Origin: a virus
Strand: one strand, 5' to 3'
DNA length: 57,340 nt
IMG/VR virus record: IMGVR_UViG_3300012001_000138
Location: 1 to 57,340 of that record
The notes beneath the pieces were generated by a model that saw only the letters and a program-made list of their open reading frames with translations, did no database searches and was not told the origin of the DNA. How positions within the stretch are numbered: position 1 is the first letter of the stretch; every line of letters starts with the position of its first letter. Both the position numbers and the translations under genes were made by a program. This document shows positions 18,414 through 56,534 of the stretch, one piece after another.

Positions 18414-19253
18414 GTGGCTGAGTGCCAGTACTGCGAGTCCACCGTCCGGGACGACCGGACCCTCTGCCCGGTCTGCACGGCGTTCCTCCACACCCTCCTC
18501 TCCCAAGTCCCCGGCATCCTTGAGGAGCTCGACGTCGCCCTGACCCGGCAAGCCCGGCTGCGCCCCGTGAAGGGAGCGGCTGTACTGGACGCGGTGGAGC
18601 TCCCCTACAACCTGTCCGCGGCGGAGGCTGCCCGGAACATCAGGACGATGCTGCTGCCGTGGGTCCGTGTGGTGCATGTTGGGACGGGCGCCCCCTACCA
18701 GCCCAAGACGTCCACCGCAGCCCTCGCAAGGGGTTTGTGGAACTGGCGGGCGTGGCTGTCCCGCCACCACGAGGCAGGCCGCCTCCTCACCGAGCTCACC
18801 GGCGTCGTGGAGGACGTCCGGCGCATCATCGACACCCGCGTCGAGAAGGTATTCGTCGGGTCCTGCCGGTCGATCTTCAACTCCGAAGGGGAGCGCCAAC
18901 ACGCCTGCCCCGAGCACATGTACGCCCCCGCCCGCAACGTCGAGTTCACCTGCGGGAAGTGCGGGACCGTCCACCACGTCAAGACCCGGCAGCAGCAGGC
19001 CATCGCCGCCTCAGAGAACCGCGTCCTACCCCCGCAGACCATCGCCCGGGCCCTCACCCGCAACGGGGAGGCCCTGAGCGTGGAGCGGCTCTACAACTGG
19101 GTCAAACGCGGCCTCCTCAAACCCGCAGCCATCGACCCCACCAGCAAGCGGAAGCTCTACCGTGTCGGGGACGTCCGCGACGTCATGATCGCCACCGACG
19201 CCTCCCCCAACAACCCCCGCAAAGCACTCACCGAAATGAGGGACGCCGCATGA
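18414..19253 (+). CDS. Zinc-finger and MerR-like HTH protein, 279 aa
   Basis: An N-terminal zinc ribbon (CQYCES...CPVC, residues about 4-23), a helical centre, a second Cys group (CPEHMY...CGKCGTVHH), and a C-terminal MerR/excisionase-like HTH (LPPQTIARALTRNGEALSVE, VERLYNWVKRGLL). This architecture is common in actinophage accessory regions and suggests a DNA-binding regulator of phage transcription. GTG start after AGGAGCC. Confidence 0.65.
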   Translation: MAECQYCESTVRDDRTLCPVCTAFLHTLLSQVPGILEELDVALTRQARLRPVKGAAVLDAVELPYNLSAAEAARNIRTMLLPWVRVVHVGTGAPYQPKTSTAALARGLWNWRAWLSRHHEAGRLLTELTGVVEDVRRIIDTRVEKVFVGSCRSIFNSEGERQHACPEHMYAPARNVEFTCGKCGTVHHVKTRQQQAIAASENRVLPPQTIARALTRNGEALSVERLYNWVKRGLLKPAAIDPTSKRKLYRVGDVRDVMIATDASPNNPRKALTEMRDAA

Positions 19254-19923: not shown

Positions 19924-20040
19924 CCCGGCCGTCAGGCTAAGCCGGGGACCCCGGACCTCCCTCGCAGAGGAGGACCGTGGCCGACTCGGGCCGGGCTGCA
20001 AACAGTCCGGCCACGGGTAGTGGTTCGAATCCACCAGCGC
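19924..20040 (+). ncRNA. Structured RNA or degenerate tRNA with a T-arm-like end
   Basis: CCCGGC/GCCGGG, CCTCC/GGAGG and CCGTGGCC/GGCCACGG (19975-20036) are consecutive or nested stems. The last encloses CCGGGCT-GCAAAC-AGTCCGG. It is followed by GTGGTTCGAATCCAC, which looks exactly like a tRNA T-arm, and then AGCGCCGGA. I could not find a matching 5' acceptor strand, so a normal tRNA is unlikely. A tRNA-like structured RNA or decayed tRNA (Cys-like GCA loop) remains possible. Confidence 0.35.
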
Positions 20041-20041
20041 C

Positions 20042-20115
20042 GGACGGGTAGCTCAGTCGCGGTTAGAGCACGCGAGTAAGATCGCACGACGCAGGTTCAA
20101 GTCCTGCCCCGCCCA
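20042..20115 (+). tRNA. tRNA-like gene, unusual anticodon loop
   Basis: A 74-base cloverleaf. Acceptor GGACGGG pairs with CCCGCCC (one A-C mismatch) with discriminator A; D-arm GCTC/GAGC; T-arm GCAGG-TTCAAGT-CCTGC is perfect. The anticodon stem is only GCGA/TCGC around a six-base loop GTAAGA, one short of the normal seven, so the identity is unclear; AAG (Leu) would be the reading if T is position 33. No CCA is encoded. It may be degenerate, or a tRNA fragment used otherwise. Confidence 0.6.
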
Positions 20116-20817: not shown

Positions 20818-21405
20818 ATGACCGCCGCGCCCACCCGCCTCACCCACGAACTCACCATCGAATACGTCCCCCTCACCAACCTCTCCACCTACCCCGGGAA
20901 CGCCCGCCTCGGCGACGTGGACGCCATCGCCGAATCCATGGACGAGAACGGCATCTTCGACGCCATCGTCGTCCAACGCTCCACCGGCTACGTCCTCGAC
21001 GGGAACCACCGCTACCTCGCCATGACCCAGATGGGGGAGGAGCAGGCCCCCGTCATTTACGTGGACGTGGACGACGAACGGGCCAAACGCATCGTCCTCG
21101 TCGCTAACCGGACCAACGACCTCGCCACCTACGACAACACCGCGCTCATCGCCCTCCTGCAGGACCTCCCCGACCTCGTGGGCACCGGCTTCGAAGATGA
21201 CGACCTGTCCGCCCTCATCGCGCTCAACGAGGACGACACCGACTGGGACGACGAGGACCTCCAAGACACCCTCAACGACGCCGACAAAGCAGGCTGGCCC
21301 GTGCTGCGCATCCAGATCGACCCCACGTCCAAGGAACAGTTCGACTCGATCCCCGGCGAAGACGACGTCGCCCGGTTCTACTACCTCCTCGAACAGGCCC
21401 TCTAA
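20818..21405 (+). CDS. ParB-like nuclease-domain protein
   Basis: A 195-residue protein. Residues about 15-95 form a ParB/Srx N-terminal domain: VPLTNLSTYPGNARLGDVDA, AESMDENGIFDAIVVQRS, and the diagnostic GNHRYLAM (ParB/nuclease motif). The C-terminal part is acidic. The next gene, DpdA-like, starts at the base after its stop, so they are probably a functional pair. ParB-domain proteins near phage modification genes may target or nick DNA, or bind nucleotides (CTP/ATP). That role is inferred. Confidence 0.75.
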   Translation: MTAAPTRLTHELTIEYVPLTNLSTYPGNARLGDVDAIAESMDENGIFDAIVVQRSTGYVLDGNHRYLAMTQMGEEQAPVIYVDVDDERAKRIVLVANRTNDLATYDNTALIALLQDLPDLVGTGFEDDDLSALIALNEDDTDWDDEDLQDTLNDADKAGWPVLRIQIDPTSKEQFDSIPGEDDVARFYYLLEQAL

Positions 21406-22350
21406 GTGGGTGTCAACGTCCTGCTCTCCTACGCCTTCCACGACAAGACCGACCTCGCCAAGGTCCGCAAGTCCCTCGTGTGCGGGCGCATGATGATCGA
21501 CTCCGGCGCGTTCACCGCCTACACCACGGGCAAGACCATCCACCTCAAGGACTACGCCGAGTACTTGGAGACGTGGCGTGGGCAGTGGGACCATGCCGTC
21601 ACCCTCGACGTCATCGGCGACCCGGCCGGGTCCAAGCGGCAGACCACCAAGCTCCATGCCATGGGCCTGCCCGTGATGCCGGTGTTCACCCGGGGCGAGT
21701 CCATCAAGGAGTTCGACGCCATGGTCAAAGACGTCGGCTACGTCTGCGTCGGCGGCATGGTCGGCCTACCCCCGGCCATCGTGGAGAAAAGGACCGCGCT
21801 CCTGCAGCGCAGGGCTGAACAGAACGGCGGCGGCATCCACGCCCTCGGCGTCGGCGCGATCCCCACCCTGCGCCGCGCCAAGCCCTACAGCGCGGACGCC
21901 TCCAACGTCTCCGGGGCGTTCCGGTTCGGGACCATCCTCTGCTTCGACGGGGAACGGGTCATCAACATGCCCGTGAGCGACAAGGCCAAGCTGCGCAAGC
22001 ACGCCGACCACCTCGCCGCCCACGACATTGACGTCGCCAAACTCGCCACCACCGGCAGGATGCCCTCTGGTTCCACGGGACGCCCGGAGCTCATGCGCGG
22101 CATGTCCCTGTCCTACGCCGCGGCCGATGAATGGCTCAAGCCCCGCACCAAGGCGCCCGTCCCCCACGGGACCACGGACGTCCCCGGCACCCATCTCTAC
22201 TCCTCAATCGTGGCAGGGTTCCTGCTGGACCCTGCCACGGCCCTCGACAAGGAACTCCACGAGGGCTACAACCCGCGCATCTGGGCCCGCCACGGCCGCA
22301 ACCACCAATGCCACCCCCAACACCGCCGCAGCATCCCCGCTGCGGCCTGA
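21406..22350 (+). CDS. dpdA: DpdA-like 7-deazaguanine DNA transglycosylase
   Basis: A 314-residue protein related to tRNA-guanine transglycosylases but of the phage/DNA type: RMMIDSGAFTAYTTGK (Asp 32, equivalent to the DSGGF motif of TGT) and VTLDVIGD near residue 67. The order DpdA-QueC-QueD-QueE-FolE matches the published phage systems that exchange guanine in DNA for preQ0 or derivatives (Hutinet and co-workers). The expected reaction is base exchange at deoxyguanosine. GTG start directly after the ParB-like stop. C-terminal zinc-type His/Cys residues are not obvious. Confidence 0.85.
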   Translation: MGVNVLLSYAFHDKTDLAKVRKSLVCGRMMIDSGAFTAYTTGKTIHLKDYAEYLETWRGQWDHAVTLDVIGDPAGSKRQTTKLHAMGLPVMPVFTRGESIKEFDAMVKDVGYVCVGGMVGLPPAIVEKRTALLQRRAEQNGGGIHALGVGAIPTLRRAKPYSADASNVSGAFRFGTILCFDGERVINMPVSDKAKLRKHADHLAAHDIDVAKLATTGRMPSGSTGRPELMRGMSLSYAAADEWLKPRTKAPVPHGTTDVPGTHLYSSIVAGFLLDPATALDKELHEGYNPRIWARHGRNHQCHPQHRRSIPAAA

Positions 22351-22368
22351 CCAACCGAAGGAAACTCG

Positions 22369-23073
22369 ATGTCAAACCACCCACCCATCCTGATCGCACG
22401 GCTCAAGAAGCAGGTCGTCCTCCTCTCCGGCGGCATGGACTCCACCACCCTCCTCGCCCTCGCCCTCACCCGCGGCCCCGTCCTCGGCGCCCTGTCCGTG
22501 AACTACGGCCAGCGCCACGCCGTTGAACTGGAGGCAGCCAAGGACGTCGCCGCGTTCTACGGCGTCCCCCACTTCATCCTCGACCTCACGAGCTGGGGCT
22601 CCCTGCTGACCGGCTCAGCCCTGACCGACCCATCCGTGGAGGTCCCCGAGGGTCACTACGCCGCCCCGTCCATGGCCGTCACCGTGGTTCCCAACCGCAA
22701 CGCCACGATGCTCATGGCCGCTGCCGGTGTCGCTGAGTCCCTCGGCGCTGAGGTCGTCCTGACCGCCGTGCACAACGGGGACCACCACGTCTATCCGGAC
22801 TGCCGCCCCGAGTTCATCGCCGCCGCGTCGCTCGCCGCGAACCTTGGCACCGGCGGGGCAGTGTCGATCGATGCCCCGTTCGTGAACGTGTCCAAGACCG
22901 ACATCGCCAAGCTCGGCCACGACCTCGGCGCCCCGCTGCACCTGTCGTGGTCCTGCTACAAGGGCGGCACCCGCCACTGCGGCGCCTGCGGGACGTGCGT
23001 GGAACGCCGTGAAGCGTTCACCGACTCCGGTGTCACCGACCCCACCATCTACCTCACAGGAGCCACAGCATGA
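22369..23073 (+). CDS. queC: QueC, preQ0 synthase
   Basis: A 234-residue ATP-dependent enzyme converting 7-carboxy-7-deazaguanine to preQ0. The PP-loop motif SGGMDST is at residues 20-26, and NYGQRHAVELEAAKDVA is characteristic. The C-terminal zinc site is SWSCYKGGTRHCGACGTC. Full length for the family, with no fused amidotransferase domain, which argues against the Gat-QueC branch that makes archaeosine-like bases. Confidence 0.95.
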   Translation: MSNHPPILIARLKKQVVLLSGGMDSTTLLALALTRGPVLGALSVNYGQRHAVELEAAKDVAAFYGVPHFILDLTSWGSLLTGSALTDPSVEVPEGHYAAPSMAVTVVPNRNATMLMAAAGVAESLGAEVVLTAVHNGDHHVYPDCRPEFIAAASLAANLGTGGAVSIDAPFVNVSKTDIAKLGHDLGAPLHLSWSCYKGGTRHCGACGTCVERREAFTDSGVTDPTIYLTGATA

Positions 23074-23471
23074 CCCGCATTTACGCCACCATCTCCAAGG
23101 AGTTCGCGTTCAGCAGCTCCCACCAGCTCGACGGGCTCCCGGAGGACCACCCGTGCTCCCGGATGCACGGCCACAACTACGCCGTCAAGCTGTCCCTCTC
23201 CGGGGAGCTGGACGCCACCGGGTTCGTCATGGATTACCGGGCGCTCGCCCCGTTCAAGGACTACCTCGACGGGGACCTTGACCACCGGCACCTCAACGAT
23301 GTTCTTGGGTTCCAGCCGACGGCGGAGAACATGGCCAGTCACCTCGCGCACATGGCCGAGAACCTCCTGCCCCTGCCGGACTCCGTGGGGCACGTGGCGA
23401 TCAGCGTCTCCGAGACGCCGAAGACGTGGGCCACGGTCAACGTGTTCCGTCATGTGGAGAGGAACCTGTGA
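23070..23471 (+). CDS. queD: QueD, 6-carboxytetrahydropterin synthase
   Basis: A 133-residue PTPS-family enzyme forming 6-carboxy-5,6,7,8-tetrahydropterin. Visible features: FAFSSSHQL (zinc His 18), HPCSRMHGHNY with catalytic Cys 29 and zinc His 33 and 35, and DLDHRHLND. ATGA overlap with queC indicates coupled translation. Confidence 0.93.
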   Translation: MTRIYATISKEFAFSSSHQLDGLPEDHPCSRMHGHNYAVKLSLSGELDATGFVMDYRALAPFKDYLDGDLDHRHLNDVLGFQPTAENMASHLAHMAENLLPLPDSVGHVAISVSETPKTWATVNVFRHVERNL

Positions 23472-24211
23472 GCGCCCCGGCCATGCTTGACCTGACCCCG
23501 TCCGAGGGGGCCCCGCGGCTGCCGTTTGTGGAAGCGTTCGGGCCGACCCTGCAGGGCGAAGGGCCCGCCGCGGGCCGGGCCTCGTCCTTCGTGCGTTTCG
23601 GTGGCTGCAACCTGTCCTGCTCGTGGTGTGACAGCCCCTACACGTGGGACGCGGAACGGTTCGACCTCCGCAAGGAAATCGCCCTCCTGTCCCCGGAGGA
23701 CATCGTCGCGCGCATCCCGGACGCGCCCCTCGTCATCGTCACCGGCGGCGAGCCGCTGCTGAATCAGCGGCATAAGGCGTGGGAGCAATTCCTGTTCCTG
23801 CTCCGGCAGCGGTTCGCCTACGTCCACATCGAAACGAACGGGACCATCGTCCCCAACGACGTCACGCTCGCCTACGTGGACACCTTCATCGTGTCCCCCA
23901 AGCAGGCCCACGCCGGGGAGCACAAACGCACCCAGAACCCGGCGCTGAATGTTGGCTGGTCCAAGCTTCACGACGACTACGAGGCGCACCTCAAGATCGT
24001 GGTCGAGGACGCCGCCGGAGTCGATGCCGCGGTCGAGCTGGCCATGAATCACCACTGGCCCAAGGACCGGGTCTGGGTCATGCCCGAAGGGACCACCGCG
24101 GACGTCCTCAACGCCCGCTTCCCGGAGGTCGCCACCGCCGCGGCCGAACACCACATCAACGCATCCCACCGCCTGCACGTGCTGGCGTGGACCGACGTAA
24201 GGGGCCACTAA
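23468..24211 (+). CDS. queE: QueE, 7-carboxy-7-deazaguanine synthase (radical SAM)
   Basis: About 247 residues from GTG 23468 (ATG 23483 is the alternative). GPTLQGEGPAAGRASSFVR precedes the radical-SAM cluster motif CNLSCSWC (Cys 47, 51, 54), followed by DSPYTWD, then VIVTGGEPLL, which are hallmarks of QueE. It rearranges carboxytetrahydropterin to 7-carboxy-7-deazaguanine. Confidence 0.93.
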   Translation: MSAPAMLDLTPSEGAPRLPFVEAFGPTLQGEGPAAGRASSFVRFGGCNLSCSWCDSPYTWDAERFDLRKEIALLSPEDIVARIPDAPLVIVTGGEPLLNQRHKAWEQFLFLLRQRFAYVHIETNGTIVPNDVTLAYVDTFIVSPKQAHAGEHKRTQNPALNVGWSKLHDDYEAHLKIVVEDAAGVDAAVELAMNHHWPKDRVWVMPEGTTADVLNARFPEVATAAAEHHINASHRLHVLAWTDVRGH

Positions 24212-24820
24212 GTGACCAACCCTCACATCATCGACCTCGACGCCCGCCGGTTCACCAACAGGGACCCCGTGGCTGAGGCTGTCCGGGAACTCCTGTACGC
24301 GCTCGGCGTGGACGAGGGCGACCACACGGCCGACACCCCGGCCCGTGTGGCGAAGTCGTGGCGGGCCCAGCTCGCCGGATACAACGAGGACCCGGCCGTC
24401 CACCTTGAGAAGCAGTTCAGCGCCCCCGGCCAGCCCGGCCTCGTGGCCGTCCACGGCATCCGGTTCGCCTCCACCTGCGCACACCACCTGCTCCCCATCA
24501 CGGGGACCGCGACCATCGCCTACAGGGCCAAGGACGGAGGCGACGTCGTGGGCCTGTCCAAGCTCGCCCGCGTCCTCGAAGGGTATGCCAAACGGCTACA
24601 GGTACAGGAACGCCTCGGCGCGCAGGTCGCGGACGCCATCGTGGACAAACTGGACCCCGTCGGCGCGGCCGTCATCATCACGGCCGAGCACGGGTGCATG
24701 ACCGTCCGCGGCGTCAACCAGCCCACCGCGGCAACGACCACCATCGCCACCCGGGGCCAATGGGATGAGTTCAACCCCGAACTCGCCCACCTCATCGCCA
24801 TCCACCACAAAAACAGCTAG
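24212..24820 (+). CDS. folE: FolE, GTP cyclohydrolase I
   Basis: A 202-residue enzyme making dihydroneopterin triphosphate from GTP, the entry point to the deazaguanine pathway. Residues HGIRFASTCAHHLLPITG carry the zinc ligands (Cys 89, His 92 region), and EHGCMTVRGVNQP holds the second Cys. GTG start next to the queE stop. Carrying its own folE frees the phage from host pterin supply. Confidence 0.94.
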   Translation: MTNPHIIDLDARRFTNRDPVAEAVRELLYALGVDEGDHTADTPARVAKSWRAQLAGYNEDPAVHLEKQFSAPGQPGLVAVHGIRFASTCAHHLLPITGTATIAYRAKDGGDVVGLSKLARVLEGYAKRLQVQERLGAQVADAIVDKLDPVGAAVIITAEHGCMTVRGVNQPTAATTTIATRGQWDEFNPELAHLIAIHHKNS

Positions 24821-25061: not shown

Positions 25062-25108
25062 AACAGAGCATCCCCTCCCGGAATACCCGGGAGGGGATGC
25101 TAGGCGCT
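25053..25108. terminator. Bidirectional hairpin terminator between convergent genes
   Basis: A perfect 15-bp stem, AGCATCCCCTCCCGG (25067-25081) with CCGGGAGGGGATGCT (25087-25101), is extended by an outer AGCGCCTA / TAGGCGCT pairing. It lies between the rightward modification operon and a leftward HTH gene, so it can terminate both strands. Confidence 0.75.
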
Positions 25109-29488: not shown

Positions 29489-32470
29489 GTGGGCTGGCTT
29501 GAACAACTGGGACTCCGGAAGTCCGTGAACAGCCCCGAGCAGCGGGAACAGGTCGCCATCGCCACCGCGGCCGCCCGCACCCAGATGGAAGGGACGGCCT
29601 TCTCCCCCGGCGTCCCCATCCAGCCCTTCGAGGGTGTTGGCGGGCCCGCGAAGGCGTGGGCGGTCCCGGCAGGGTACAACATCAGGTCCCGCCCGCAACG
29701 TGATTCCCGGCTGTCCTTTGAAATCCTCAAAGCCCTCACGGACTCCTACGACGTCGCGTCCATGTGCATCGCGCACCGCATCAACTCGATCCGGTCCCTT
29801 GAATGGTCCATCGTGCCCGCGGACGGTTTGGACGGGAACATTGAGGAAGCCGTCAGGATCGCCACCCGCCACATGAAACGCCCGGACGGGGCCCGGTCCT
29901 TCCGCACATGGCTGGCCATGTACCTCGAAGACATTCTCCGCTACGACGCGGGCACCCTGCATAAGCGCCGGGACCGTATCGGCCGGGTCATCGGCCTTGA
30001 GGTCGTCTCCGGGTACACCATTGCCCCGGTACTGGACATCTTTGGGCGCCGCCCGGTCGGGGACGCCCCCGCGTTCGTGCAGTTCGTGAACGGTACGGCG
30101 TGGAAGTGGTTCACGGCCGCGGACCTCATCTACGAACCGTTCCGCCCGCAGGCTGACTCCCCGTATGGTGTCGCGCCGTTGGAAGCTGTCATCCTCGCCG
30201 TGAACACGGACCTGAGGTTCCAGCAGCACTTCCTGAACTACTTCACCGAGGGCACCGTCCCGGAGGGCTTCATCATCCTCCCGGAGGAAGCGTCGCAGGC
30301 CACGCAGCTCAAAGAGTTCCAAGAGGTTTTCGACTCGTACATGTACGGGGACATGGCGGCTAAACGCCAGCTCAAGGTCCTGCCCGGCGGGGCGGACGTC
30401 AAGTTCTCCAAGGACGCGACGTTCGACTCGAACTTCGCCGAGTTCCTCATGCGCAAAGTCTTCGCCGCCTACCACGTCCAGCCCCAAGAACTCGGCTACA
30501 CCATGGACGTCAACAGGTCCACCGGCGACAACCAAGAGGACATCAGTTTCCGCACCGGGGACCTCCCCATCATCAACCACATCCAAGACATCCTCAACGA
30601 GTACCTCCAACTGGACCTTGGCCTGCCGGTCAAGTTCCAGTTCGACACGGGCAAGGAGACCGAGGACAAGGTCGCGGTCGCGCAGGCGGACAAGATTCAC
30701 ATCGAGCTCGGTGTCGTGTCCGTGGACGAGGTCCGGGAGATGCGGTACGGCCTCCCGGCCGACGCTGAGAACCGGGTGCCCCGCTTCATCCTTGGCACGG
30801 GTAACGCCGTGCCCATCCCCCTCCGGTCCATCATCGCCTCCGCCGGGGCGACGGACCCGGAGACCGCTGCACCGTTGGAGGGCACTCTGGTTGACGCCAG
30901 CACCGGCCCTGCCCCGGCTGTAGCCCCTGCACTCCCTGTCGGGGGTGAACATCAGAAGGTCTCCATCTCCTCAGACGGGCCCACACCGGGGAGGGTTGCA
31001 GTTACGCCCGCCCCGGTCACCGGGCCAAGCGTTGCCACAGGAACGGCCTCGGATGCGACCCCCGGCGGGGCCATTACTAAGTCGGGACCTGTTGCGGCCG
31101 GGCTTGCGCTCAAGGCCGCGGACACGGGCCGGGTCCTCATGATCCAACGGACCCTTGACCCGGAGGACCCTGCGGCTGGCCGGTGGGAGTTCCCCGGCGG
31201 CCACATCGAGGACGGGGAAGCCCCTGAGGCTGCGGCCGTGCGTGAGTGGGGCGAAGAAACCGGGCTCACCCTCCCGGCTGACGCGGCCCCTGTTGGCGCG
31301 TGGGCGACCCCTGACGGCGTCTACGCAGGCTACGTCTACAAGGTCCCCGCTGAGGCTGCCATCCCCATCAACACCGGCGACGGTGAAGACGGGGAGACCC
31401 TCGCATGGTTCGACCCTGCCCACCTTGACGGGTTCCCCGCACTCCGGGACGAACTCGCCCGGGACCTCCCCACGGACGCCCTCGCCAAGGGCCTCCGCAA
31501 GGAGCTGGAGCAGTGGCGGTCCAACACCCTCACCCGGCTCAAGCGTGGCCAGTCGCCGCGCCGCTACCGGGGCGCGGAGTACCTGCCTGCCGCTGCGGTG
31601 GACGCCATTTGGGGCGCACTGCAGAAGACGCAGGACAGTGGCAACGCGGGCGGCATCTTTGACGCCGCCATGGAAGCCGCCGTCGGCGCCGCCGCTGGTG
31701 GTGGTAACCCAAAAGCGCTACCCGCCCCTAGCTGGCGGGACGCGCCCCCGGTAGCCACCCCGCAGCACGACGTGGACCTGCAACTCACGGACCACTACAC
31801 GGAGCAGTTACAGGCCGCGTTACGGGCCTTCCTGTCCCCGGAGGCTGTGGCGGCGGCCATCGAGCACCACATTGAGGCGCCCCTCGTGCATTCCATCGAG
31901 ACGGCCCTCGCGGAGGGTGCGACCCCGCAGTCGCTCTCCACGGTGCTCAACGAGATGATCCGGGACGCCTACGGGGCCGGGGAGATGGCCGCGAAGGTCC
32001 AGCTCGGGCAAGACGTCCCGGGCTGGTCCATCTGGGCCCCGGGCACCCCGCCCGAGGCCCTGCACGCTGACCTGTCGTGGGAACAGGCCCTCCAGCAGGC
32101 CCGCATCAGCCTCAAGGGCATCTCGGACACCACGTTCGAACGCATCGGCCGGATCATCGAGGACGGCGTGGACGAAGGCCATTCCGTGGACCGGATGGCC
32201 CACGCCATCGGGGAGTTCCTTGAGGACTACGACCGGGCCGAAGTCATTGCCCACACCGAATCGGCCCGCATGATCTCCCTCGCCACCTCAGCCCAGTACC
32301 GGGCCGACGGGATCGCCTCGTGGGACTGGATCATCTCAGCCGGTGCCTGCACGTACTGCACGGACAGGTTCGACCAGAACCCGCACCCCATGGGCGCACC
32401 AACCCCGCCCGGTCACCCCCGCTGCCGCTGCTCCATGGCGCCCAGCAAAACACCCCTCACCACCCCATAA
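29489..32470 (+). CDS. Portal-Nudix-MuF triple fusion, 993 aa
   Basis: Three modules in one uninterrupted frame. (1) Residues about 40-450: portal protein (DSRLSFEILKALTDSYDVAS, NRSTGDNQEDISFR). (2) A Pro/Ala-rich linker, then a Nudix hydrolase domain at about 538-670 with a perfect Nudix box: GHIEDGE at 571-577 and REWGEETGL at 585-593, preceded by GRWEFPG. (3) About 800-990: MuF-type minor head protein with HTESARMIS, then CTYC (954-957) and HPRCRC (976-981). Portal-MuF fusions occur in some phages. A central Nudix domain is unusual and would put a nucleotide-diphosphate hydrolase in every virion. GTG start after AGAAGGAGG. Confidence 0.85.
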   Translation: MGWLEQLGLRKSVNSPEQREQVAIATAAARTQMEGTAFSPGVPIQPFEGVGGPAKAWAVPAGYNIRSRPQRDSRLSFEILKALTDSYDVASMCIAHRINSIRSLEWSIVPADGLDGNIEEAVRIATRHMKRPDGARSFRTWLAMYLEDILRYDAGTLHKRRDRIGRVIGLEVVSGYTIAPVLDIFGRRPVGDAPAFVQFVNGTAWKWFTAADLIYEPFRPQADSPYGVAPLEAVILAVNTDLRFQQHFLNYFTEGTVPEGFIILPEEASQATQLKEFQEVFDSYMYGDMAAKRQLKVLPGGADVKFSKDATFDSNFAEFLMRKVFAAYHVQPQELGYTMDVNRSTGDNQEDISFRTGDLPIINHIQDILNEYLQLDLGLPVKFQFDTGKETEDKVAVAQADKIHIELGVVSVDEVREMRYGLPADAENRVPRFILGTGNAVPIPLRSIIASAGATDPETAAPLEGTLVDASTGPAPAVAPALPVGGEHQKVSISSDGPTPGRVAVTPAPVTGPSVATGTASDATPGGAITKSGPVAAGLALKAADTGRVLMIQRTLDPEDPAAGRWEFPGGHIEDGEAPEAAAVREWGEETGLTLPADAAPVGAWATPDGVYAGYVYKVPAEAAIPINTGDGEDGETLAWFDPAHLDGFPALRDELARDLPTDALAKGLRKELEQWRSNTLTRLKRGQSPRRYRGAEYLPAAAVDAIWGALQKTQDSGNAGGIFDAAMEAAVGAAAGGGNPKALPAPSWRDAPPVATPQHDVDLQLTDHYTEQLQAALRAFLSPEAVAAAIEHHIEAPLVHSIETALAEGATPQSLSTVLNEMIRDAYGAGEMAAKVQLGQDVPGWSIWAPGTPPEALHADLSWEQALQQARISLKGISDTTFERIGRIIEDGVDEGHSVDRMAHAIGEFLEDYDRAEVIAHTESARMISLATSAQYRADGIASWDWIISAGACTYCTDRFDQNPHPMGAPTPPGHPRCRCSMAPSKTPLTTP

Positions 32471-54140: not shown

Positions 54141-55073
54141 ATGGAAGACGACATGCAACACGCTACCCTTATTGGCCTGCCCTCCGCACGCATCACAACC
54201 ACGGCGGAACTCGCCGCCGCCGGTTACCTTGCCCGCTATAACGGGGGCACCCGCGAAACCTACAAGGTGTCCCTCAAGCTGCTGTTTCAGTGGTGCGGCA
54301 ACCTTGGCGTTGAAGTACTGGACGGTATGCGTCGGCCGGTACTGGAGCTTTTCGCCCGCTACCTTGAAGACGAGCGCCATAACGCCCCCGTCACGGTCGC
54401 CCACCACCTCTCCATCATCCGCGGATATTACTCGTTCGCCGAGATTGACGGGTATATCGAGAAGTCCCCGGCCACCCACATCCGGATGCCCCGCGTATAT
54501 AGGGACGAGTCGAGCACGCTGGGCCTTGACCGGATGGAGCTGGGGTCCCTGATCCAGACGGCACGGGCCTCGCACGTCATGGACGCGGCTTTGGTGACGT
54601 TGATGGGGATGCTGGGGCTCCGCGTGTCGGAGGCCTGCGCGGTGAAGGTGGAGGACTACCAGACCATCGAGCGCGGCCACCGTGTCCTTCGCCTTGTCGG
54701 GAAGGGCGGGAAGCCTGCCACGATGCCCCTACCGGTCCCGGTGATCCGGGCGCTGGACGCCGCTGCAGGTGACCGCGTGTCGGGCCCGCTGCTGCTTCGG
54801 AGGAAGTCGGGGCTGCCCATGAACCGGAAGTCCGCGGCGTTGGCCATCGCGCGCCTCTGTAAGGCCTCGGGAATTACGAAACGTATCAGCCCTCACTCGC
54901 TTCGCCACTCGTACGTTACAGCGGCGCTGGACGCCGGTGTGCCCCTGCGTGACGTGCAGGTCGCGGCCCGGCACTCGGACCCGCGGATTACCGCCCGGTA
55001 CGACAGGGCCCGCCATAACCACGATAGGCACGCAAACCACACGGTGGCAGCGTTCCTCGCCGGAGCCGCCTAA
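54141..55073 (+). CDS. Tyrosine recombinase, XerC/D-like
   Basis: A 310-residue recombinase. The catalytic residues are all visible: Arg in GLRVSEACAV, Lys in LVGKGGKP, HSLRHSY, VAARHSD and Tyr in ITARYDRAR. N-terminal SAM-like helical domain at about 30-110. Shape and spacing resemble XerC/D and the shorter phage integrases, without an arm-binding domain. It lies beside a second tyrosine integrase, which is unusual. A role in dimer resolution or alternative integration is possible. Confidence 0.85.
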   Translation: MEDDMQHATLIGLPSARITTTAELAAAGYLARYNGGTRETYKVSLKLLFQWCGNLGVEVLDGMRRPVLELFARYLEDERHNAPVTVAHHLSIIRGYYSFAEIDGYIEKSPATHIRMPRVYRDESSTLGLDRMELGSLIQTARASHVMDAALVTLMGMLGLRVSEACAVKVEDYQTIERGHRVLRLVGKGGKPATMPLPVPVIRALDAAAGDRVSGPLLLRRKSGLPMNRKSAALAIARLCKASGITKRISPHSLRHSYVTAALDAGVPLRDVQVAARHSDPRITARYDRARHNHDRHANHTVAAFLAGAA

Positions 55074-55141: not shown

Positions 55142-55365
55142 GTTGAAATGTTGAAAATACGAGTTGAAAAGCTCAACGACAGTCCACCTCCGGTTAGCGG
55201 TCGGACGCCCTCCAGTCCGCTAGGATACAGGCATACCAAGGAAAGGAGGAGGGCTACTTCTACACCTTTCTAACGGGTCCGATTCCCGTCAGCCGCTCCC
55301 ATTTAGCCCTACTCCCGTAAGGGAAGTTTTGGGCCGTGTTGAAATGAGCGGCAAAAGTGTTGAAA
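55142..55365. other. attP: Candidate attP: arm repeats flanking a tRNA-like core
   Basis: GTTGAAA occurs at 55142, 55150 and 55163 on the left and at 55338 and 55359 on the right; such paired direct repeats look like integrase arm sites. Between them, 55273-55301 reads ACGGGTCCGATTCCCGT then CAGCCGCTCCCA, the shape of a tRNA T-arm and 3' end, a usual core for tyrosine integrases. One T-loop base departs from the conserved TTC, so the exact target tRNA is uncertain. Confidence 0.5.
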
Positions 55366-55385
55366 GCTGTAGCCCACTAGGCGTC

Positions 55386-56534
55386 ATGGCAAGTATTAGA
55401 CAGCACCAACGCAAGGACGGCTCGACGAGCTTCTACGTCCTCTGGCGGGACCGGGGGACCCAGACGTCCCGGGGCTTTGACGATGAGTCGGAGGCGAAGC
55501 GGTTCAAGGCGTTCCTTGACGCGAACGGCCAGTCGCTCACGCTGGCGACAAAGGCTGCCCGGGCCGCGAAGGGTGAGGGTCCCACGGTGGGTGAGTTCGT
55601 GGCCGAGCATATTGCGGGCTTGACGGGGGTGACGGAGCGGACCCCGGATGACTACCGGCGGGAGTTGCGGCTCCACATCGTCCCGACGTTGGGGAGCATC
55701 AAGGTCAAGCAGCTCACTCGGCGCCGGGTCCGGGAGTGGATCAACCTGCTGGAGAAGCAGGGGGCGTCGCCGAAGTCGATTAGCAACCGGCACGGGCTGT
55801 TGTCCTCGGCGATGGCCACCGCGGTCGAGGACGGCATTCGGGCGGACAATCCCTGCCGGGGCATTCGGCTGCCGGGCAAGGACCGGCGCGGGGACAAGGA
55901 GAAGTTCTTGGAGGTCCCGCAGTACCATCTTTTGCTGCGGCAGTTCGATGACCAGTGGAAGCCGCTGATCGAGTTGCTGGCCGGGACCGGCGCGCGGTGG
56001 GGTGAGGTCACTGCGCTCCTCGTGGGCGACGTGATGCTGGACGAGAAGGTCCCCTACGTCGCGATTGATAAGGCGTGGAAGCGGCTGCCGGGGAACCGGT
56101 GGGAGGTGGGCCCGCCGAAGTCGGACAAGTCCGTCCGGGACGTGTCCATCAGTGCGGGGCTGGCGAAGGTGCTCAGGCCGCTGGTGGACGGGCGTGAGCT
56201 GGAGGATCGGCTGATCCTCAACACCACGGGCACGGGGCACCTGTTGTACTCCAATTTCCAGTCCCGGCCGTGGCGGACGGCAGTGAAGGCGGCAATGACC
56301 AAGACGAAAGCGAACCCCCGGCCGCTCCGGTATAAGCCCACGATTCATCACCTCCGGCACTCGCACGCGAGTTGGCTGCTGAATGACGGGGTGGACATTT
56401 ACACGGTGTCCCGCAGATTGGGGCACGAGTCGATCACGACCACGACGGGGATTTACGGGCACCTGTCCCACCGGTCGGAGAAGGCCGCGGCGGAGTCCCT
56501 GATGCGGGCGCTCCACAACGAGGACGAGGACTAG
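55386..56534 (+). CDS. int: Phage integrase (tyrosine recombinase)
   Basis: A 382-residue integrase from ATG 55386. Residues 1-50 form an arm-binding domain (DGSTSFYVLWRDRGTQTSRG); about 65-150 is the SAM-like core-binding domain; catalytic domain with Arg in GTGARWGEV, Lys in PKSDKS, HHLRHSH, RRLGHESITT and the terminal Tyr in GIYGHLS. The upstream GTG at 55329 would add 19 residues without better support. It integrates the genome at attP and, with Xis, excises it. Confidence 0.93.
   Translation: MASIRQHQRKDGSTSFYVLWRDRGTQTSRGFDDESEAKRFKAFLDANGQSLTLATKAARAAKGEGPTVGEFVAEHIAGLTGVTERTPDDYRRELRLHIVPTLGSIKVKQLTRRRVREWINLLEKQGASPKSISNRHGLLSSAMATAVEDGIRADNPCRGIRLPGKDRRGDKEKFLEVPQYHLLLRQFDDQWKPLIELLAGTGARWGEVTALLVGDVMLDEKVPYVAIDKAWKRLPGNRWEVGPPKSDKSVRDVSISAGLAKVLRPLVDGRELEDRLILNTTGTGHLLYSNFQSRPWRTAVKAAMTKTKANPRPLRYKPTIHHLRHSHASWLLNDGVDIYTVSRRLGHESITTTTGIYGHLSHRSEKAAAESLMRALHNEDED

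Follow-up and report, generated by a model that had tools for sequence, protein, structure and literature searches.

What does a ParB-like protein do in an operon whose other products would make a modified base and place it in DNA? The role of a ParB domain beside phage DNA-modifying enzymes has been described as unknown (PMC12783734). The question is raised by a virus record from IMG/VR, IMGVR_UViG_3300012001_000138 (57,340 bases, 66% GC), which we analyzed over its whole length and refer to as the window. The host group of this phage is actinobacterial. On the plus strand of the window lies an island of six genes (20818-24820) that encode a ParB-like protein, DpdA, QueC, QueD, QueE and FolE. 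The original prediction, made from the sequence alone, read the island as directing the synthesis of preQ0 (7-cyano-7-deazaguanine) and its insertion into phage DNA, and listed the ParB-like protein without a role.

We propose, with a probability of roughly 0.7, that the island is a preQ0 operon in which DpdA inserts 2'-deoxy-7-cyano-7-deazaguanosine (dPreQ0) against restriction, that ParB is the dedicated partner of DpdA, coupled to it by its C-terminal tail, and that tail and dpdA are swapped between phages as a cassette. In this mechanism, FolE, QueD, QueE and QueC would make preQ0 from guanosine triphosphate (GTP), and DpdA would put it in the place of selected guanines once the phage DNA has been replicated; the resulting dPreQ0 would block host restriction. 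The N domain of ParB, a putative nucleoside triphosphate (NTP)-binding module of the DNA-clamp type, may load DpdA on DNA or switch it on there, and the C-terminal tail of about 60 residues may dock on the matching DpdA. Because the tail would couple ParB to its own DpdA, we propose that the two are exchanged as one unit; the exchange would change where the writer acts and leave preQ0 synthesis untouched.

The island adds one phage to those with a known protective DNA modification, and islands of this type are already known and annotated in a close relative, Arthrobacter phage Sonali. The joint inheritance of tail and DpdA as a cassette appears to be new: we found no report of it, or of the alternation between ParB and clamp genes described below, in the searchable literature, outside which most subscription papers lie. 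With this proposal, the ParB domain found alongside phage DNA-modifying enzymes has a concrete, testable role. Differences in restriction protection between phages that carry the same base, such as Rosebush and CAjan, could also be explained, by exchange of the writer rather than of the base pathway.

A cassette that begins inside parB

Sonali (MK411746) has the same genes in identical order (gp86-gp91) with similar flanks, but its DpdA and ParB tail are unlike those of the window. Protein identity between the two phages was 83% for QueC, 63% for QueD, 75% for QueE, 74% for FolE and approximately 60% for ParB, compared to 29% for DpdA. Sliding nucleotide identity was 0.70-0.88 at 20858-21217, mostly 0.3-0.55 from 21218 to approximately 22406, and 0.7-0.88 again from 22407. 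The drop falls at about codon 133 of parB, and in the AlphaFold2 model of the protein (predicted template modeling score, pTM, 0.68 for the whole) a confident N domain gives way there to a low-confidence linker, which places the break at a domain boundary (Table 1). The possibility that the divergence of DpdA is an alignment artefact was ruled out by the sharp edges, and also by window-type DpdAs elsewhere that are 50-60% identical and have the matching tail.

We determined which of two sequences the window sides with at informative sites, using Sonali and, as the third sequence, the locus L033 (IMGVR_UViG_3300031456_000057). In the ParB N domain the window sided with Sonali at 45 sites and with L033 at 5, compared to 5 and 12 in the ParB tail (N domain vs tail, Fisher p 4e-6). 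The corresponding numbers were 17 and 109 in DpdA, 69 and 12 in QueE, and 48 and 12 in FolE, and the pattern was alike with four other third sequences. Judged by these sites, parB is of dual origin, with the switch falling inside one protein. The window and Sonali amount to a natural experiment, with preQ0 synthesis and the N domain of ParB in common and a difference in one 1.2-kb cassette. There was a second clear case, in which locus L067, compared with L086, L095 and L096, had approximately 70% identity in DpdA and 57% in the tail, but approximately 29% in the ParB N domain and 42% in QueE and FolE.

Table 1. Genes of the island, the two parts of the ParB-like protein, and the segment that differs from Sonali (window positions)
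Feature	Position	Strand	Evidence
ParB-like	20818-21405	+	PF02195 E 5e-6; phrog_723 3e-41; TAA stop 21403-21405
ParB/Srx NTP-binding-type N domain, residues 1-133	20818-21216	+	PF02195; AlphaFold2 residues 11-130, predicted local distance difference test (pLDDT) 92-98
ParB linker and C-terminal tail, residues 134-195	21217-21402	+	linker pLDDT 63-70, then two helices (AlphaFold2)
DpdA, DNA-guanine transglycosylase	21406-22350	+	314 aa; GTG start abuts parB stop; phrog_887 2e-33
QueC, 7-cyano-7-deazaguanine (preQ0) synthase	22369-23073	+	234 aa; PF06508 4e-63; TIGR00364 above cut-off
QueD, 6-carboxytetrahydropterin synthase	23070-23471	+	PF01242 1e-28; TIGR03367 84 bits (cut-off 89)
QueE, 7-carboxy-7-deazaguanine synthase, radical S-adenosylmethionine (SAM)	23468-24211	+	TIGR03365 2e-27; radical SAM 2e-9; phrog_2076 7e-62
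FolE, GTP cyclohydrolase I	24212-24820	+	PF01227 3e-53
Cassette exchanged relative to Sonali: ParB tail, dpdA and queC 5' end	21218-22406	+	sliding identity, sharp edges

Inheritance of the ParB tail with DpdA

We compared 69 loci that have ParB, DpdA, QueE and FolE by partial Mantel correlation with 499 permutations. The correlation of tail with DpdA was 0.57 (p 0.002, the minimum attainable), compared to 0.18 for N domain with DpdA and 0.05 for N domain with tail. It was 0.54 after thinning to 58 loci with less than 70% DpdA identity. Tail models from whose training whole DpdA clades had been left out recognized 45 of the 69 DpdA-linked tails at 15 bits or more, and 1 of 60 tails from ParBs without DpdA. 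We then used a replication set of 39 new independent DpdA loci, 28 of them with ParB. The tail model matched 23 of these 28, the correlation of tail with DpdA was 0.37 (p 0.002), and that of N domain with tail was -0.04. The coupling of tail and DpdA and the independence of the two halves of ParB were therefore both replicated. In one locus from Pseudonocardiaceae (L205), a window-type DpdA and a window-type tail occur with a different ParB N domain.

The main alternative keeps the same preQ0 operon and has the tail hitchhike, with recombination in the parB N domain and at the start of queC swapping everything between. The cassette edges do lie within the most conserved flanks, and the pair of loci with reversed gene order (dpdA before parB; L034 and L007) has the N domain (53%) and DpdA (45%) in common and the tail not (22%), as linkage predicts. 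Linkage fits less well with the correlation of tail and DpdA in every class of parB-dpdA gap (0.42-0.73, gaps of more than 300 nt included), or with its near equality across the three successive thirds of DpdA (0.54, 0.52 and 0.52; 0.54 between the first and last thirds themselves), and most ParBs that lack DpdA have tails of a different kind. We consider hitchhiking unlikely, although both it and shared ancestry, a further alternative, retain some weight.

Several observations, the reversed-order pair among them, weigh against a dedicated partnership of ParB and DpdA or against its predicted product. Since the tail adjoins dpdA, it could travel with that gene, without serving any function, whenever recombination takes place inside the conserved N-domain part of parB. 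The Mantel p values are approximations, given the phylogenetic relatedness of the loci. Held-out recognition of tails failed mostly for two DpdA clades that have other tails. In the replication set the correlation of N domain with DpdA was 0.42, as strong as that of tail with DpdA, and the weakness of this link in the first set was not replicated. The likeness of the modeled DpdA fold to solved tRNA-guanine transglycosylases (TGTs) is weak: the PDB fold search returned mostly generic TIM barrels, with TGTs among them at template modeling (TM) scores of 0.38-0.42, so that it is the sequence families and the viral folds that place the protein in DpdA. Finally, the record may be incomplete. End repeats are not annotated in its 57,340 bases, the extent to which the absences reported below apply, and a few kb may therefore be missing; the Sonali genome has 61,073.

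The ParB-like protein itself could instead be a nuclease or regulator that is dispensable for modification, for example one that breaks down host DNA or, in the manner of DndB, represses the operon. Its name in GenBank is ParB-like nuclease, and among ParB/Srx proteins are the regulator DndB and enzymes reported to nick DNA. We consider this very unlikely given that ParB is in the same locus in 73 of the 77 DpdA loci of the first set, that it is excluded from clamp-linked dpdA loci (see below), that its tail tracks DpdA, and that other phages have ParB domains in fusion with DNA methyltransferases. As regards the proposed loading or switching role, ParB folds bind cytidine triphosphate (CTP), adenosine triphosphate (ATP) or GTP (PMC12704722, which also describes the phage methyltransferase fusions), and the closest PDB folds of the N domain were ParB bound to CTP or cytidine diphosphate (CDP), followed by sulfiredoxin and SerK. 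A partition ParB of the ParABS type was ruled out (TIGR00180 25.4 bits, cut-off 58.45). ParB N domains found without DpdA had other C-termini, mostly no tail, and several were fused to DNA methyltransferases.

The preQ0 pathway, DpdA and the predicted base

All six genes were detected in Pfam, NCBIfam and PHROGs searches, and a chance origin of the island is excluded. As originally predicted, they form one operon in which genes abut or overlap by 4 nt; the exception is a gap of 18 nt between dpdA and queC. For queE, the GTG at 23468 is the likeliest start, and it overlaps the stop codon of queD. Family queries with QueE started at 23462, two codons upstream, and the matches were unaffected. 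The pathway from GTP to preQ0 is complete, with catalytic motifs intact: CAHH and HGC in FolE, HGHN in QueD, CNLSCSWC (CxxxCxxC) in QueE, and SGGMDS, YGQRHAVE, VPNRN, YPDC and the Cys cluster in QueC, where the Cys spacing is slightly shorter. QueC has all five signature motifs reported for the canonical enzyme (PMC13329287). Across the DpdA loci, about 29 of 77 had no QueC match, some of them being truncated. In L033 a SAM-dependent methyltransferase gene (1898-2710) stands in the expected place of queC, which was not found in that locus, and the base there is possibly a methylated or uncyanated 7-deazaguanine.

DpdA had no match in Pfam or NCBIfam. Among PDB sequences, its family profile matched 7ui4 best, a DNA-guanine transglycosylase, with a weak E value (0.02). 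The AlphaFold2 model, built from 24 sequences, was confident (pLDDT 92.1, pTM 0.90), and its nearest viral folds were Sonali gp87, the DpdAs of Microbacterium phage Megan and R9TGF0 of Vibrio phage nt-1. Residues D32, G34, A35, D68, G116, H145 and D164 were invariant in the 24 aligned sequences. His196 of phage 9g DpdA is conserved and reported missing from DpdA2 (PMC6884629); the invariant H145 of the window DpdA is a candidate counterpart. The open frame, the confident model and the intact active-site residues ruled out a degraded dpdA. A broad alignment of DpdAs had no stretch conserved enough to scan genomes with. A scan with the window-type clade gave a single close match, in a Pseudonocardiaceae metagenome-assembled genome; DpdAs of the window type (50-60% identity) came from this genome and from a handful of viral contigs.

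The prediction that no QueF, ArcS-like or Gat-QueC protein is encoded holds for the record. Family searches gave no match to QueF (PF14489), DUF5591 (PF17884, our proxy for ArcS), GATase_6, PF03883 (our proxy for DpdC) or PF02592 (YhhQ-type), and QueC is single-domain. In a survey, phages with DpdA, FolE, QueD, QueE and QueC were predicted to carry preQ0 or 7-amido-7-deazaguanine (ADG), and dPreQ0 was measured at approximately 32% of G in CAjan and 28% of G in Rosebush; without dpdA, CAjan lost both the base and its restriction resistance (PMC6884629). The claim that such modification protects phage DNA is thus borne out in a related phage. Because none of the tailoring families tested matched and measured phages of the same gene set carry dPreQ0, this base is the best prediction for the window phage and is expected in its DNA, in agreement with the original prediction.

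The base could be a further derivative, such as dADG, dPreQ1 (the deoxynucleosides of ADG and 7-aminomethyl-7-deazaguanine) or a new one, made by an unrecognized enzyme of the phage or by the host, for instance by a host QueF. Many small genes of the record have no assignment, and other tailoring products are known from phages, according to a study as cited in PMC12783734. The lack of tested tailoring families in the record and the dPreQ0 measured in phages with the same genes make this quite improbable. That the pathway supplies tRNA queuosine, and not DNA, was rejected as having next to no probability. DpdA is a TGT homologue and carries the GenBank label queuine tRNA-ribosyltransferase, but its matches were to phage DpdA families and a DNA-guanine transglycosylase, with no tRNA-TGT match in Pfam or NCBIfam, and QueF, required for preQ1-based tRNA modification, is lacking from the record. 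A PHROGs scan of 30 other genes identified an exonuclease, RecT, single-stranded DNA-binding protein (SSB), a replication initiator, RusA, terminase, portal, tail and endolysin proteins and two integrases, and no DNA polymerase. RecT, exonuclease, SSB and RusA without a polymerase fit with post-replicative base exchange.

Proposed partners of DpdA in other phages and neighboring features

None of 104 distinct ParB-linked dpdA loci had a clamp or polymerase match nearby. Conversely, sliding-clamp and polymerase genes neighbor dpdA in phages CAjan, Knedl, pVco-14, HdK1, RHph_X3_2 and Ssp-JY38, and a ParB domain was missing from all 10 clamp-linked loci (these six, Erebus, PSTCR4, Sulfitobacter phage M39 and L271). 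Another 11 DpdA loci had neither. Most of the clamp-linked set belongs to one lineage, part of it was hand-chosen, and the clamp model was seeded with three of its members; the exclusivity is thus suggestive rather than a tally of independent events. Tentatively, phage DpdA may need a clamp-type partner, which would be either the replication clamp and polymerase, as in Escherichia phage CAjan, or a ParB-fold protein. The ParB N domain would then be a general loader for base-modifying enzymes, joined to them by fusion (methyltransferases) or by an exchangeable DpdA-specific tail, and a swap would change the writer and its targets while preQ0 synthesis is kept.

CAjan and other clamp-linked phages are like the window in having DpdA and the four preQ0 enzymes, and differ in the missing ParB and in the position of dpdA. 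Mycobacteriophage CRB2 (genes 1-6) and other cluster B phages also have an operon for ParB-like, DpdA, QueC, QueD, QueE and FolE proteins, but with a distant DpdA (25-30%), another tail type, and terminase genes adjoining. The CRB2 authors suggested that ORF1 is possibly a dpdB homologue, and the pairing of ParB and DpdA had thus already been remarked (PMC6392294). In Microbacterium phages Megan and Nicole72, ParB adjoins DpdA and occurs with QueD, QueE and FolE as in the window, but there are two tandem DpdA paralogues, approximately 47% identical, for one ParB (L004 670-2543 and L002 670-2751, respectively). Unlike the window, they have a fused GAT-QueC (455-462 aa), so that deoxyarchaeosine (dG+) rather than dPreQ0 is their predicted base. 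In Mycobacterium phage Rinkes, gp1 (L036 1-1299) has a ParB domain fused to DUF6610 and lies ahead of dpdA, possibly a natural fusion with another modification-related domain.

The bacterial Dpd system (DpdA, DpdB, DpdC) likewise pairs a TGT-type DpdA with a partner of the ParB superfamily, DpdB, which is reported to provide ATPase activity for preQ0 insertion. However, dpdB is tied to DndB domains in the literature, and in the window protein PF02195 (ParB_N) was the sole domain match and no DndB-type domain was found; nor was a DpdC-type family or a restriction operon. By domain content the phage ParB is not DpdB, and the likeness would be limited to working like it.

Beside the helix-turn-helix gene gp80, Sonali has another DpdA-like gene of small size, gp81 (L001 5054-5671). 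The window has a gp80 relative (18414-19253) and no nucleotide match to Sonali gp81. A promoter scan gave no signal above chance. Downstream of the island, a strong hairpin of 16 pairs followed by a T-rich stretch (25067-25101, minus strand) is likely a terminator that separates the island from the genes running leftward. A short way upstream of the operon lies a tRNA-like gene (20042-20115; Rfam 46 bits), whose anticodon loop is abnormal and whose anticodon cannot be assigned. It is probably degenerate, and is preceded by an apparent 3' half of another tRNA at approximately 20010-20044. An adjacent pair of integrase genes (54141-55073 and 55329-56534, both phrog_1) makes a temperate lifestyle probable; Sonali has a single integrase gene. 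A single protein of 993 aa (29489-32470) joins portal, MutT/Nudix and MuF-type head-morphogenesis segments, and a portal-MuF fusion is annotated in Sonali.

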